Of a DNA stretch of 64,000 nucleotides, positions 13,434 to 63,996 are shown one piece after another. Source of the DNA: Microtetraspora sp. NBRC 13810 (GTDB lineage: Bacteria > Actinomycetota > Actinomycetes > Streptosporangiales > Streptosporangiaceae); the NCBI RefSeq assembly GCF_030268685.1, contig NZ_BSRQ01000006.1:310001-374000 (forward strand). Reading direction: 5' to 3'. The position numbers and the translations under genes are program-made. How positions within the stretch are numbered: position 1 is the stretch's first letter; each line of letters starts with the position of its first letter. The notes beneath the pieces were generated by a model, which saw only the letters and a program-made list of their open reading frames with translations, ran no database searches and was not told where the DNA came from.

Positions 13434-14003
13434 CTATTTTCCCTTCGCCGCCTGCTTGGCCTCCTGCTTGGTGAGCCGGACCTTGGCCAGGCTTTCCCTG
13501 TCGACCACGTCGGCGACCGACCGGAAAACGCCTTCCTCGCCATAAGGCCCGGCCGCCTCACGCCAGCCGGGCGGCCGTACGCCGAGCTGCTTGCCCAGCA
13601 GGGCGAGGAAGATCTGCGCCTTCTGCCTGCCGAACCCGGGCAGGGCCGTGAGGCGCCCGAGCAACTCCTTGCCGTCCGCCACGTCGCGCCACAGAGCCTC
13701 CGCCGAACCGTCGTGATGTGCTACGAGATAGGCGGCCAACTGCTGGATGCGTCTGGCCATCGACGAAGGGTAGCGGTGCACGGCGGGTTTCCGGGCGAGA
13801 AGCGCGGCGAAATCCTCCGGGTCCCGGTGGGCGATCTCCTCGGCCGTCAGGTCGTGCCCCAGCCTCTCGGCGATGGTGTACGGGCCGCTGAAGGCCCACT
13901 CCATCGGGATCTGCTGATCGAGGAGCATGCCGATCAGCAGGGCGAGCGGACTGCGACCGAGCAGGTCGTCTGCCTCTGGTCGCTGCGTGAGCTGGATGCG
14001 CAT
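13434..14003 (-). CDS. HhH-GPD base excision DNA repair protein
   Basis: 189-aa protein of the endonuclease III/AlkA helix-hairpin-helix superfamily. LLGRSPLALLIGMLLDQQIP is the first conserved helical block, and LTALPGFGRQKAQIFLALLG near residue 118 is the helix-hairpin-helix followed by the GPD-like region. It lacks the iron-sulfur cysteines of Nth and MutY. Members of this small actinobacterial subgroup are annotated as base-excision repair glycosylases; the damaged base is not known. The ribosome site of the start at 14003 is weak. Lys-rich tail. Confidence 0.88.
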   Translation of the reverse strand: MRIQLTQRPEADDLLGRSPLALLIGMLLDQQIPMEWAFSGPYTIAERLGHDLTAEEIAHRDPEDFAALLARKPAVHRYPSSMARRIQQLAAYLVAHHDGSAEALWRDVADGKELLGRLTALPGFGRQKAQIFLALLGKQLGVRPPGWREAAGPYGEEGVFRSVADVVDRESLAKVRLTKQEAKQAAKGK

Positions 14004-14101
14004 GGGTTCAGCTTGGCACGGCGACCCTCGGGGGGTTGACAGCGGCGAGAGAAGATATGGAATGAGGACTAGGTCCTGTTCGCGAGGGAATGCGGCTTAA
14101 C

Positions 14102-14344
14102 ATGTCTGCACTCGCTACAAGAACCACCGACGTCACGGTCGTGCTGTGGAAGCAGGTCAGCGCGCGCCTGGCCGAGGAGTTCTCGAAGATTCCCGAAGAG
14201 GCCGTGGACCGCCGGGTGGCGGACGTCCTGGCCCGGGTCAGGCATCTCGGCGTCGCCGCCACCCCGGAGGTGGTCGAGCGCGTAGCTCGTGAGCATCTGC
14301 TCGCGCTGGTCAACTCCGAGCCCCCGTCGGGGATTCCCCGGTAA
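14102..14344 (+). CDS. Small three-helix-bundle protein (80 aa)
   Basis: MSALATRTTDVTVVLWKQVS onward: a short helical protein with the pattern LAEEFSKIPEEAVDRRVADVL followed by TPEVVERVAREHLLALV, matching small actinobacterial proteins described as three-helix-bundle dimerisation domains. The start at 14102 (GAGGGA 11 nt upstream) is preferred to ATG 14090, whose ribosome site would touch the codon. The function of the family is unknown. It lies just upstream of the tandem mini-ORF repeats and the 526-aa gene, and could be in the same transcript. Confidence 0.7.
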   Translation: MSALATRTTDVTVVLWKQVSARLAEEFSKIPEEAVDRRVADVLARVRHLGVAATPEVVERVAREHLLALVNSEPPSGIPR

Positions 14345-14408
14345 CATACGGGTCACCGGGCCGCGTTCTACGCGCCCTCCGGGCCTGGAATGCGAGAAGG
14401 TTGAGCCC

Positions 14409-14470
14409 GTGACCGAGCGCGCCAACCAGCACGGCGGCCTTCGGATCACGCGGCCGACGCGGGAGGTCGT
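14409..14470 (+). repeat. Tandem 62-bp mini-ORF unit, copy 1
   Basis: Exactly 62 bp. Read from its first base it is a complete 21-codon ORF (GTG start, VTERANQHGGLR at the N-terminus) whose last codon and TGA stop overlap the GTG of copy 2 as GTGTGA/GTGA. Its own start follows GAGAAGG about 9 nt upstream; its 3' end contains GGGAGG positioned 4 nt before the next GTG. Identity to copy 2 is 46 of 62 bases. Confidence 0.75.
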
Positions 14471-14532
14471 GTGAGCGAGCCAGCCAGCAAGCACGACGGC
14501 CTCCGGAGCTCATGGCGGGCGAGGGAGGCCGG
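14471..14532 (+). repeat. Tandem 62-bp mini-ORF unit, copy 2
   Basis: Exactly 62 bp, immediately after copy 1. It again encodes a 21-residue peptide (VSEPASKHDGLR at the N-terminus, REAG at the end), and its TGA overlaps the GTG start (14533) of the 526-aa gene as GTGA. Its GGGAGG at 14523-14528 is the ribosome site of that gene. The two peptides match at V-E-A-H-GLR-R-RE positions, so the reading frame as well as the DNA looks conserved. Confidence 0.75.
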
Positions 14533-16113
14533 GTGACCCGGCACCGCCGCCTGCCCTCGGACAGCCCCCCGCCCGACGACGTGTTCGCCGAGATGCTGCT
14601 GGCCGCGCGTGAGTTGCTCGCCGTCCGCAGCCCGCTCGACGCCGAGCTGATGGTCTCGGACATGATCGGCGCCTGGTGGGGCCGCCGGCTGCGCGGCGGT
14701 GACGTCGAGCAGGTGCTCGGCGAGGGTCTCGTCGACTACGCGGCCAAGGCCGGCACCCCCGCGGGGCTCACCCTGCTGATCGCGATGGCCTACCTCGGCA
14801 CGGCCAGGCAGGCGGCGAAGGCCGAGGGCGCGGCGCTGGCCCTCATGGAGTCCGGCGTGGCCCGGCCGGGCTGGGCGGACCGGGTGGGCGCGGTCAAGCC
14901 CGACGGCTGCCACGTGTCCAGAGACGCCTACGGCGACCAGGACACCGTCGTGTGCACCTTCACCTACCGCGACCTCGACGGCACGACCACCAAGGAGGAC
15001 CGGCACGCGCTGGTGGTCGTGGTCGACTACAACATGCGCGGCATGGCCCGGGACGCGTGGGTCTCCTCGCAGGTGGACAAGCTGCTGGAGAAGGCGGGCG
15101 CGGAGGCGGGCGGCAACCCGATGCTGCGGTTCGAGGAGATCGAGCCGACCCAGGCCAGGGCGCTGCTGGAGTCGGCGATGACGGCCACCAGGGAGGCGTG
15201 CGACCGCAACGGGCCGCCGCCGGTCAGCGAGAGTTACAGCACCTTCCACGCCTTCGCCCGGTCCCGGATCAAGGCGCTGCCACCCGGCCGCAAGCGCCCG
15301 GCCCCGCTGCACACCGAGGCGCCCTACAGCAGGGAGCGGCGGGCGATGCTGGCCGCGGAGTTCCTCGCCTCGGACGCGGCCGAGCACCTCTCCGACCCGT
15401 CGTCGGCCTCGCGGTGCGCCGACCACATCATCGACTACGGCTGCGAGCAGGACTTCGGGCGCCCGCTGCGGGTCAGCCCCACCAAGTGCGAGACGTTCCT
15501 GCTCGACTGGCTGCCGCGCAAGGTGATGCTGAGCCCGGCGGAGCAGGAGGCGATGCCGTACGCGCTGTCGGCGTGGGCGCGGTTCGCGGCCGGGCGCACG
15601 GCGCTGCCGGAGGAGGGGCTGCGCGCGACGCTGGACGCGATCTGGGAGGCGACCGCCCGGTTCCCCGAGGCTTACCGCGATCCGACGTCCTTCGGGCTGG
15701 ACCGGGAGCTGGTCGAGCGGCTGCTGCCTGACGGCGACCTGTCGGCCCTCGGCCGGCGGGCGTTCGCCTTCCCCTATCTCCAGGGCACGCACGGCGACAT
15801 CCTGCTCGACCGGCTCAACCCGGCCGACGAGGGTGACCGCCGGGTGCTGCTGGGCGTCGACCACGCCGCCGAGCGGCACCGCGCCGACTACGACGAGCAT
15901 CTGGCCTGGCACGAGGAGATCGCCACCCGGCTATGGGAGGGCGACCCGCCGCAGCTCTGGGAGGCCGCGCAGCGCCTGCTCGACCTCGGCCACGACCGGC
16001 ACGAGGTGCTGCACGTGCTCATCGAGATCGCCGAGCGGATCGGCGACCATCCCGACGAGCTCGCCGCCGCCCTCGACGACATCGCCGACATTCCTGACTC
16101 GCCACCCGCGTGA
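14533..16113 (+). CDS. Hypothetical protein with a C-terminal DUF1841-like region
   Basis: 526-aa acidic soluble protein. The N-terminal 270 residues form an alpha/beta region (DTVVCTFTYRDLDG, ALVVVVDYNMRGMARD), the middle is helical with Cys-His positions (SRCADHIIDYGC), and the C-terminus (LWEGDPPQLWEAAQRLLDLGHDRHEVLHVL...) resembles DUF1841, a short helical domain with conserved RHE-H residues. Start GTG at 14533 uses GGGAGG 4 nt upstream, supplied by the preceding 62-bp mini-ORF, so translation is probably coupled to it. Function not recognised; similar large actinobacterial proteins are unannotated. Confidence 0.75.
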   Translation: MTRHRRLPSDSPPPDDVFAEMLLAARELLAVRSPLDAELMVSDMIGAWWGRRLRGGDVEQVLGEGLVDYAAKAGTPAGLTLLIAMAYLGTARQAAKAEGAALALMESGVARPGWADRVGAVKPDGCHVSRDAYGDQDTVVCTFTYRDLDGTTTKEDRHALVVVVDYNMRGMARDAWVSSQVDKLLEKAGAEAGGNPMLRFEEIEPTQARALLESAMTATREACDRNGPPPVSESYSTFHAFARSRIKALPPGRKRPAPLHTEAPYSRERRAMLAAEFLASDAAEHLSDPSSASRCADHIIDYGCEQDFGRPLRVSPTKCETFLLDWLPRKVMLSPAEQEAMPYALSAWARFAAGRTALPEEGLRATLDAIWEATARFPEAYRDPTSFGLDRELVERLLPDGDLSALGRRAFAFPYLQGTHGDILLDRLNPADEGDRRVLLGVDHAAERHRADYDEHLAWHEEIATRLWEGDPPQLWEAAQRLLDLGHDRHEVLHVLIEIAERIGDHPDELAAALDDIADIPDSPPA

Positions 16114-17714: not shown

Positions 17715-17742
17715 CGGCCCCCTTACGTGCCGCCCCCACGAC

Positions 17743-18054
17743 ACTCCGCGCAGGAGTCCGTACGGCGGGCCGCTCACCTGCCGGGAAGGCACTCCGCCCA
17801 GGGGTTCATGCGCCGGGCTCCTCATGCACCGCGCAGGTACTCCGCGCCGGGCTTCATGCGACGGGCTCATGTGCTGGCGCTCCACGCGGGGCTTCATGCG
17901 GCGGGCTCCTCATGTACCGCGCAGGGCTTCAGACGGCGGGCTCATGTGCTGGGAAGGCGCTCCGTGCAGGGCTTCAAAGGGCGGGGTCCTCATGCACCGC
18001 GCAGGCGCTCCGCGCGGGGGGCCGTACGGCGGGTCGCTCACGGGGGTGCCGGGT
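17743..18054. repeat. Degenerate tandem array, about 48-bp unit, between pxpA and pxpB
   Basis: Six to seven imperfect units built on CTCCGCGCAGGGCTTCATG followed by CGGCGGGCTCCTCATGCACC. Units start near 17743, 17791, 17839, 17879, about 17927, 17958 and 18006; some are 48 bp and others shortened (40 or about 32 bp). All frames are open through it, so it can look like coding sequence, but no frame keeps a conserved peptide across units. The whole 17715-18114 gap holds nothing else except the ribosome site of pxpB at its right end. Confidence 0.75.
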
Positions 18055-19586: not shown

Positions 19587-19671
19587 CCGCCCCGGCGGCG
19601 TCCCGACCTCCGCGCCTCGCCCGACCCACGGCCGACGGCGACCCCGTACACGCCGTCACCACCCCGGACAA

Positions 19672-19826
19672 CCCAGCACCTCACCTCTCCCCGAACAGCC
19701 CAGCACACCCTCGCCTCCTCCCGAACCACCCAGCACGCCACCACCTCCCCCTCAACGGCCCAGCACCCTCGCCTCCCTCTGGACGGCCCAGCGCGCCGTC
19801 ACCTCCCGCTGGGCGGCCCAGCGGGG
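19672..19826. repeat. Degenerate tandem array, 27-30 bp unit, in the pxpC-pnuC gap
   Basis: Units beginning CCCAGC at 19672, 19699, 19729, 19759, 19787 and 19817 (steps 27, 30, 30, 28, 30), each continuing with a C-rich CACCTCCC-type stretch and ending near ACGG or GCGG. The 310-bp gap 19587-19896 otherwise holds only the pnuC operator and ribosome site at its right end. Confidence 0.7.
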
Positions 19827-32190: not shown

Positions 32191-32250
32191 AGCCGGATGA
32201 CACGAAGACCAAGGAACCGCCCGCCCGGCCACCCGCCCTCGGACACGCCC

Positions 32251-32405
32251 GGTGACCGCCCACGGGTGGCGAGCGCTCCCACCGACCGCCCACCGGCCGC
32301 GGACGCTCCCGGTGAGCGCCCATGGGCCGCGGCCACTTCCGTTGACCGCCCACCGGCCACGGGCGCTCCCAGTGGGTGTCCAGCTTCCGGTGGGTGTCCA
32401 TGGGC
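32251..32405. repeat. Tandem 30-bp repeats upstream of the TPR gene
   Basis: Four units of exactly 30 bp start at 32251, 32281, 32311 and 32341 (TGACCGCCCACCGGCCGCGG then ACGCTCCCGG), followed by two shortened units beginning TGGGTGTCCA at 32371 and 32389. On the minus strand they stay in frame with the TPR protein. Confidence 0.75.
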
Positions 32406-62604: not shown

Positions 62605-63996
62605 TCAGGCAGGGGTGGTGGCGGTGAAGGTGGGGAGGTTGGCCGGGCTCAGGCCGCCGAAGTGCCAGGTGCCGGCGGCCCAGGTGCCGAGCCAGAACAC
62701 GCCGAGCGCGACAAGGATGAGACCGATGGCGACCACCACCCGCCCACGCCGGGTGAGCCGAAGCGGCGGCCTGCTGTCCCGCCCGTCGGCCCCTTTCCCC
62801 CGCAGGCCCCCGTCGGCCCCCTTCCCTCGCAGGCTGTCCCGCCCGTCGGCGCCTTTCCCCCGCAGGCCGTCCCGCACGTCGGCGCTCTGCCCTCGCAAAA
62901 GCCGTCCCTCCGACGCGGCCAGCCTCACCTGAACCGACGAGACACTTCCAACGGGTCCGCGCCGCCGCTTCCGCCGTATCCCAGCCGCGACTCCCGCCAC
63001 GGACCGCCCCTCATGCCCGGCACGCTCCCCGGCCCACCGACCAGATCCGCGTCCCCGCACAGGTTCCAGCCCTGCCCCCGAACCGTCCAGAGCCCCGGCC
63101 TCCTGCCCGGATCCGGGCCGCCGCGCGAACGCACCCCACCGCGCGGACCCGCTCCGCCGCCCAGAACCGCCGCGCTCAGCACCCAGCCCCCGCCGTGCCC
63201 CCGCCTCCACAGACGCGCTCCGCTCCACAGCCACGCCCGGCCGTGCACCCCGCTCCACCCCTACGACCCGCCGTGCACCCCGCTCCGCGCCTACGCCCTG
63301 CTGTGTACTTCGCTCCACAACTACGCCCCGCTGTGCGGACCCGTCCCGTTCCACGGGAACGGGACGCTGTGCGGGAACGGAACGCAGGGACGCCCCCTCC
63401 GACATCGCCCCGCGCGACACCGCCCCACCCGAGGACCCGCGCGACACCGACCCGCCCGAAGGCCCACGCGACACCGCTCCGCCCGAAGACCCGCGCGACA
63501 CCGGCCCGCCGGACTGGTCACGCGACACGGCCGAGCGCCCGGAGGATCGGTCACGTGACATGCCCGGCGCCCCCGGAGACCGGTCACGTGCCATCGGCGA
63601 AGAACCGCCGGAGAACCGCTCGTGCGCCGTAGGCGGCTGTCCGCCGGAGGAACGCTCGTACGACGCGAGCGACCCGCCCATGGAACGCTCACTCTGCGTG
63701 ACCACCTCTCCGGCCACCGCACGATTCCGCGGAACGGCGGGCGGCATGGCGGCACGCGCACGCTGTGTGACCGGCCGCCCGGTCCCGGGACGGTCGTGGG
63801 GCGCGACCGGGGAAAGGGGCGGAGCGGCTTCGAGGTACGGCGGGCGGTCTGCCGGAGGGCGGTCGATCGGGGAGCGGTCGATCGGAGGGCGGGGACCTGC
63901 CGGGGATCCGGGCGGCTGTCCCTTGCGTGAGGCGGATCGCAGCGCGGCGGCACGTCGAGCCGCCGCCCGCCGAGCAGCCGCACGCCGCCGCAGCAT
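62605..63996 (-). CDS. Repeat-rich single-pass membrane protein at the lexA side (LysM lacking)
   Basis: At least 463 aa; start ATG 63996 is 4 bases from the window edge and could be internal. N-terminal 400 residues are disordered and repetitive: SRGSSGGAVSRGPSGG units, VERGARPGVAVER units, and RGKGADGRDSLRGKGADGG. The C-terminus has a Leu/Arg anchor and one helix (RRGRVVVAIGLILVALGVFWLGTW) and ends 17 residues later. The PLRLTRRGRVVV pattern is that of the small membrane proteins next to lexA in actinobacteria, which normally carry a LysM domain after the helix; none is seen here. Confidence 0.6.
   Translation of the reverse strand: MLRRRAAARRAAARRAAALRSASRKGQPPGSPAGPRPPIDRSPIDRPPADRPPYLEAAPPLSPVAPHDRPGTGRPVTQRARAAMPPAVPRNRAVAGEVVTQSERSMGGSLASYERSSGGQPPTAHERFSGGSSPMARDRSPGAPGMSRDRSSGRSAVSRDQSGGPVSRGSSGGAVSRGPSGGSVSRGSSGGAVSRGAMSEGASLRSVPAQRPVPVERDGSAQRGVVVERSTQQGVGAERGARRVVGVERGARPGVAVERSASVEAGARRGLGAERGGSGRRSGSARWGAFARRPGSGQEAGALDGSGAGLEPVRGRGSGRWAGERAGHEGRSVAGVAAGIRRKRRRGPVGSVSSVQVRLAASEGRLLRGQSADVRDGLRGKGADGRDSLRGKGADGGLRGKGADGRDSRPPLRLTRRGRVVVAIGLILVALGVFWLGTWAAGTWHFGGLSPANLPTFTATTPA
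62779..63580. repeat. Several tandem repeat families inside the membrane-protein gene
   Basis: Families in order: CTGTCCCGCCCGTCGGCGCC-type units at about 62779-62890; about 33-bp units with CCGCTCCACCCCTACGACCC at about 63235-63345; and 36-bp units with CGCGACACCG at about 63413-63510. All keep the protein frame. Confidence 0.65.

Follow-up and report, generated by a model that had tools for sequence, protein, structure and literature searches.

The two 62-bp units that stand in tandem before a 526-codon gene in the window (the whole stretch of 64,000 nucleotides that was analysed) are very probably worn members of a dispersed repeat family that resembles the mycobacterial interspersed repetitive units (MIRUs), occupies RTGA gene starts and would relay ribosomes into the genes that follow. 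According to this proposal, a unit would settle exactly at the RTGA of a gene start, which in operons is often the stop of the previous gene as well, and RTGA would end up flanking the unit on both sides. The left RTG would serve as the unit's start, a short open frame and a strong ribosome site (consensus AAGGAGG) would come with the unit, and its final NTGA would act both as its own stop and as the next start. A ribosome would pass from the upstream ORF to the unit and from the unit to the gene, either by unfolding or by termination-reinitiation. We infer from sequence comparison both the movement of the units and their translation with ribosome hand-over. The leader of the 526-codon gene would then be an old insertion, first shortened by one 9-nt SER repeat and afterwards doubled as a whole.

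The two units and the gene behind them

At the window site (Table 1), the GTG codons lie at 14409, 14471 and 14533, and both start-to-start steps measure 62 bp. The units are identical at 46/62 bases, with mismatches of 5/8/3 at codon positions 1/2/3. Each encodes 21 codons and closes with GTGA, and GGGAGG is placed 4 nt ahead of each next GTG (14461-14466 and 14523-14528). The description of this site in an earlier note, namely two 62-bp, GTGA-coupled 21-residue mini-ORFs of the said identity before a 526-aa gene, is confirmed in every part. It had also remarked that 62 fits the overlap although it is not a multiple of three. This is true, but it is arithmetic, as two starts joined by a 4-nt stop/start overlap always lie 2 modulo 3 apart. 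Tandem Repeats Finder reports the pair at 14409-14538 (period 62, 2.1 copies, 75% matches, no indels, score 148); it gives 70 rows in the 64-kb window, so a tandem repeat by itself is unremarkable. Imperfect arrays whose period measures 15-80 bp are also seen at 17742-18005, 19649-19822, 32221-32374 and 63220-63532.

Table 1. Features at the window site, in window coordinates
Feature	Positions	Strand	Remark
80-codon ORF	14102..14344	+	upstream of unit 1, uncoupled (64 nt between)
5' conserved stretch (TAAC..GTCACC..GTTC..GGAATGCGAGAAGGT)	14342..14408	+	ends at first GTG
Putative unit 1 ribosome site GAGAAGGT	14394-14401	+	within the conserved 5' stretch
Unit 1	14409..14474	+	mini-ORF VTERANQHGGLRITRPTREVV*; TGA overlaps unit 2 GTG as GTGA
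Unit 1 terminal hairpin (predicted)	14446..14474	+	3' arm includes unit 2 GTG 14471-14473
Unit 2	14471..14536	+	mini-ORF VSEPASKHDGLRSSWRAREAG*; TGA overlaps GTG of the 526-codon gene as GTGA
Unit 2 hairpin (predicted)	14492..14535	+	CAC 14492-14494 pairs with GTG start 14533-14535
526-codon gene	14533..16113	+	downstream of the units

RNA folding of the whole 142 nt gives a z-score of -2.28. In the hairpin predicted for unit 2, the ribosome site GGAGG is engaged by CCTCC; this is a single-sequence prediction and lies out of the family-hairpin register. An Rfam search of 14000-14700 gave no match at E ≤ 1. For the 80-codon ORF, the Pfam search found no family, and NF046112 (three-helix bundle dimerization domain) scored 19.4 bits, which is under the cut-off of 25. 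A tail resembling this ORF was seen by eye to recur 5' of many orthologs of the downstream gene.

The downstream ORF counts 526 codons from GTG 14533 and 533 from ATG 14512. Neither Pfam nor NCBIfam places it in a family at E 0.01, and it has matches at E ≤ 1e-30 in 338/341 genomes of its taxonomic family. Upstream DNA was examined for 90 orthologs including the window, closest first (about a quarter of those available), and for 30 further, more distant ones. A 5' stretch ending GCGAGAAGGT is common to most of the 90, and it is shared by orthologs with zero, one or two units. In some genera the gene starts directly after this stretch; in others a mini-ORF lies in between. A start near the conserved ribosome site was found in 79/90 parsed orthologs and is the gene's own start in 27 of these 79. 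All those with an upstream start (52/52) reach the gene by an NTGA overlap, L025 being a one-codon artefact. Two units precede the gene in six parsed orthologs, and single-unit distances amount to 23, 26, 47, 59, 68, 71, 77, 80, 83, 86 and 110 bp, the residues of which modulo 3 are not an independent test because the script demanded coupling. With a stricter script, 120 orthologs fell into 50 with a single coupled unit (in 3 cases a one-codon artefact), 26 direct and 44 other, the last class including double-unit cases and distant orthologs. L006 and L009 have no start after the ribosome site, and the start of the first of their two units has seemingly been lost. Among the 30 distant orthologs no unit was seen by eye and several look leaderless. 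Several of L112-L124 carry, again by eye, TANNCT-like boxes about six bases before the GTG, as leaderless genes do. With so many orthologs devoid of a unit (the 27 direct ones and the distant ones), the unit is not required by the gene.

It could be argued that the pair is just an ordinary regulatory leader ORF of this gene, acting by attenuation or by stress sensing through a stalling ribosome, since the 5' conserved stretch and a leader ORF occur together in many close orthologs. Such a leader is very unlikely, as unit number, length and sequence vary freely, 27/79 orthologs start directly, and the same kind of unit precedes unrelated housekeeping genes.

Alternatively, the mini-ORFs could code for a small, conserved peptide that has a function (SERSER...RPTKE). 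The peptide is indeed recognisable across genera, and the first eight codons of dispersed copies vary most at the third position, with values of 0.144/0.109/0.259 at positions 1/2/3 for 30 units of 72 nt and 0.097/0.110/0.263 for 18 units of 75 nt. In the orthologous units, however, positions 1 and 2 show no lower rate than position 3 in four length classes: 0.171/0.181/0.185 (n=10), 0.318/0.437/0.354 (n=8), 0.246/0.211/0.236 (n=7) and 0.259/0.213/0.286 (n=6). A fifth class, of 123 nt, was excluded as it derives from direct-start orthologs. Moreover, single units range from 8 to 37 codons, and dispersed copies show in their 3' third the strongest conservation at the third position, like in a DNA or RNA signal. 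A functional peptide is thus very improbable, and the earlier suggestion that the peptide product could matter finds no backing in the substitutions of the orthologous units. In these comparisons the frame is kept and the peptide is not conserved, and the act of translation is the likelier target of selection, rather than its product.

Dispersed copies and their register with gene starts

Related units mostly measure 63-84 bp and typically read MSERSER...RPTKEGA. Their 17-base core, GAGCGAGCGNAGCGAGC, has 41 occurrences in 10/15 chosen genomes, against 5 for the reversed control. At all 30 core loci that were read the core is preceded by RT, giving RTG; 23 of the 30 are coupled mini-ORFs that lead to a gene or to a further unit (L147 being the leader of the present gene), and the remaining 7 run on into a long ORF. 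A scan for the core plus AAGGAGGNNGCRTGA, with one genome per species in 84,980 species, gave 36 matches at 35 loci in Nonomuraea, Actinoallomurus, Planobispora, Planomonospora, Streptosporangium and Microtetraspora. Out of these matches, 34 are coupled and 2 run on. The pattern is strict, so absence from other species means little.

Two profiles were built as well. Profile R1 was made from 56 units, and as the window pair is among them, its scores for this pair are circular. Profile R2 was therefore built from 48 sequences that are solely units before other genes in other genomes. On the 64 kb, R2 ranks the two window units first and second (25.5 bits, E 9.8e-7, and 13.6 bits, E 0.0051), the third-best match reaching 8.7 bits (E 0.17). 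The two matches adjoin each other in register, and R2 also detects the leader of the 526-codon gene in many of the orthologs. Unit 2 alone scores weakly (E 0.005). The R2 result raises the window pair above chance.

The same searches bear on the rival reading that one leader ORF was simply duplicated in tandem at this site, with no wider family. A BLAST of the 127 bp against its own genome returns the self match only, and the two units adjoin with an exact period, both of which would suit such an event. The stretch of 127 bp is, though, too short and too diverged for BLAST, and a profile is needed. In the profile search, the own genome has four clear copies at E ≤ 4e-4, the next match being at 0.16. 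Beyond the window, one copy lies before a roadblock/LC7 gene and one at C1:553860, and both are coupled. As these two exist, as a profile free of this gene family's sequences still detects both window units, and as dispersed copies occur at many genes in relatives, a local event with no wider family is highly improbable. Still, tandem duplication may well account for the doubling at this site, similar to ribH, where none, one or two units are found. The dispersed family thus remains the preferred reading.

Two one-mismatch matches to a double-SER-repeat pattern were also seen in the own genome: one is the start of leuS and the other is uncoupled to a following start. This leuS, L283 (G000:C6:385773-385817:-), opens VSERSEQ..., 7 residues ahead of the LeuS profile. 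Its N-terminus is possibly the remnant of a unit fused in frame.

R1 finds copies in at least 22/26 chosen genomes at E ≤ 0.01, some of which supplied sequences to the model, with up to at least 40 copies per genome. It finds them in at least 117/338 genomes of the family (24/68 genera) at E ≤ 1e-6, and in at least 16/197 genomes of the class at E ≤ 1e-5, 8 of these being outside the family. Copy numbers are lower bounds, with 150, 24 and 14 candidates scored per genome in the 26-genome, class and family searches, respectively. The eight outside genomes span four other families and mostly have different 3' halves, L384 being of the RPTKE type. In another family, HisB (L399) and PurQ (L398) carry some 17-18 extra N-terminal residues of the unit type (VSERSERTNEHS... 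and VSERSERTHVHS...), which sit ahead of the profile match. A plasmid search gave one match, in a Nonomuraea gerenzanensis record of 11.85 Mb that is classed as a plasmid, in a stretch without annotated features. Two other units had no match among plasmids, and a phage search had none either.

The register was followed in 87 copies at 62 loci, which are the 88 R1 matches minus the weakest (L268 1269-1298, 14.5 bits). Of these copies, 68 end in an NTGA that is also the next start, 9 continue in frame into a gene of 100 or more codons, and 10 are neither coupled nor fused to such a gene; these ten include copies fused to another unit, the degenerate L245, and L235 and L236 with their early stops. 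The distance from start to next start is 2 modulo 3 in 69 copies, 0 in 14, 1 in 1 and undefined in 3. In the class-wide set of 25 (26 matches minus the weakest, L393 952-975, 17.2 bits), 22 are labelled coupled, L385 being counted so through a three-codon start favoured by the script, and 3 read on into a gene. Copies were gathered with patterns and profiles that contain RTGA, so that RTGA ends are partly built in; the frame, the downstream gene and the empty sites are not built into the gathering. Downstream partners confirmed by family models are PurM, ArgJ, RapZ and lumazine synthase.

On the 5' side, first units begin with NTGA in 61/62 loci. The upstream frame that ends at the first RTGA is open for 100 or more codons in 43/61 and is the longest of three in 39/61, and the control frames are open that long in 12/61 and 34/61, the latter because GC-rich DNA tends to give long frames. 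An overlap of the unit with the upstream gene is thus suggested by these frames, though not cleanly. The upstream partners PurF, ArgC and UvrC were confirmed by family models.

The start-codon hairpin and the filled and empty junctions

In single folds of four stretches, from the window and elsewhere, the next start codon falls in the 3' arm of a hairpin, with z between -1.6 and -2.6. RNAalifold on the mixed alignment A1 gave no common structure, probably because it combines several length classes, and pairing of the arms was instead counted with the 3' end as reference. Over seven arm pairs in 109 distinct units, 79% of cells pair, as against 19-45% when the arms are slid. For 81 units with different downstream genes, the figures are 82% and 20-45%. 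At the varying base of the start codon, these 81 units have the pairs A-T (29), G-C (30) and G-T (1), and the unpaired combinations A-C (12), A-G (6), A-A (2) and T-T (1), that is, 21/81. The arms of the hairpin covary, and the hairpin holds the next start codon. In RPTKE-type units, the varying base of the other arm changes the peptide (an ATG/ACG codon), and the pairing of the arms is therefore not explained by protein conservation. As the 3' hairpin encloses the next start codon, the next gene should open mainly through a ribosome that translates the unit.

Filled and empty alleles were read by eye at five junctions, namely purF-purM, argC-argJ, ribH, a symporter and a PafC-like WYL gene, and both states occur at each. 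At purF-purM, the unit is present in 1/10 genomes of genus g39; eight are empty, and G147 (g39) carries a remnant, VSERSPS, reading into PurM. G303 and G000, which lie outside this genus, are empty too. At argC-argJ, G137, G136 and G170 are filled, five g39 genomes as well as G303 and G000 are empty, and G166 and G182 have another spacer with a unit-like end. The empty state within g39 along with G303 and G000 favours a gain at this junction. The symporter, ribH and PafC-like junctions show both states, plus a few genomes with other spacers. Where filled and empty alleles are compared, nothing is missing from the flanks, and an RTGA is present at either side. Since empty sites are found at five junctions in related species, the gain of units probably took place exactly at an RTGA stop/start overlap. 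In 46 arrays, the first and last RTGA bases are G-G in 21, A-A in 12, G-A in 12, A-G in 0 and T-G in 1, a pattern such as target duplication with later drift would give. The earlier note had proposed that such a unit could insert or duplicate ahead of any GTG gene, and named copies elsewhere in register with gene starts as the check. The two further copies in the own genome and the in-register copies, tandems and empty junctions in relatives support this part of its reading.

Tandem arrays in relatives can be longer than the window pair. The longest one read, uvrC-rapZ in G200 (L268), has at least six full units along with a partial match and an N run, and L262, L244 and L247 are arrays of three. 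Predicted pairing with the 16S tail was compared at each junction between a single empty allele and one or two filled ones, and it is stronger in the filled allele at 5/5 junctions. Filled versus empty, in kcal/mol, it is -12.2 vs -6.4 for purM, -12.2 vs -6.9 for argJ, -11.8 vs -9.5 for ribH, -12.7 vs -11.2 for the WYL gene and -5.8 vs -4.2 for the symporter.

An origin of the units as a non-autonomous IS200/IS605 (Y1) derivative was considered and rejected, as resident Y1 transposases do not track unit number. At E ≤ 1e-5, PF01797 (Y1 transposase) is present in 8/18 genomes; G199, G303, G012 and G080 have at least 20-37 units yet no match at this threshold, and G147 has 10 matches and 4 units. 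The comparison with unit number covered resident Y1 transposases only, and no mobilising enzyme was found.

Significance and comparison with known systems

Coupled stop/start overlaps are common in bacterial operons, and a repeat that enters exactly there would leave the operon uncut. Such a repeat would be a rare genomic parasite fitted to translation. The filled and empty alleles at purF-purM or argC-argJ offer natural pairs with which the effect of coupling is measurable. The units are a possible origin of unannotated leader ORFs. Housekeeping proteins with an MSERSER-type extension at the N-terminus (LeuS in the own genome, HisB and PurQ in others) may owe it to the units as well, and both points are relevant to the annotation of start sites. 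A far broader view, which is possible though on the whole doubtful, is that translation-transparent mobile units occur actinomycete-wide, choose RTGA stop/start junctions by the complementarity of their own hairpin arm to the target, relay ribosomes along arrays, upgrade the ribosome site of the gene that they enter and decay to N-terminal extensions, with MIRUs as one branch.

The insertion of MIRUs into DTGA sites was reportedly described by Supply in 1997. The present units resemble MIRUs in being a short repeat of many copies (62 bp here, mostly 63-84 bp in relatives) with a small ORF and 4-nt overlaps, found on the 3' side in 68/87 copies and less cleanly on the 5' side. Their sites lie likewise at start codons or coupled junctions, to judge from the filled and empty alleles at five of them, and tandem arrays range from two to at least six units. 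According to a 2025 review, MIRUs are seemingly mobile and insert at start codons, their ORF being coupled to the gene at a -4 nt spacing (PMC12548453), and a 77-nt class I MIRU makes up the entire 5' UTR of an M. bovis gene, the M. marinum ortholog of which is leaderless (PMC4128351). The present units differ in occurring in Streptosporangiaceae and other families, and the likeness is to MIRUs as their published description gives them. A covarying start-codon hairpin, arrays of near-identical units and filled and empty junctions are documented for the present units. Since the named loci all belong to Nonomuraea, Actinoallomurus, Planobispora, Planomonospora, Streptosporangium and Microtetraspora, the family is filed as MIRU-like and not as MIRU. 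Searches of the open-licence literature gave no report of such units outside mycobacteria.

Other systems share single traits with the units. In mycobacteria, translationally coupled uORFs such as that of ppe2 are short ORFs with an overlapping stop/start, and the gene downstream depends on their translation (PMC11260477). In contrast to the present units, a uORF of this type is single, gene-specific and riboswitch-linked, and not a dispersed repeat. In the bicistronic design (BCD), a short first cistron brings the ribosome to the second, so that repressive RNA structure is less of a concern (PMC12548453, PMC5995908). BCD cassettes are engineered, unlike the present units, which occur in nature and become more numerous in a genome by themselves being copied. 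Rickettsia palindromic elements, like other MITE-like repeats, are small and non-autonomous, and they tolerate or join coding sequence (PMC10969869). Similarly, some of the present units end as in-frame N-terminal extensions; unlike the Rickettsia elements, which lie in frame inside genes, they stand at gene starts and mostly leave the genes separate. The kind is known from mycobacteria in the form of MIRUs; new here are the lineage, the start-codon hairpin and the junctions with filled and empty alleles.
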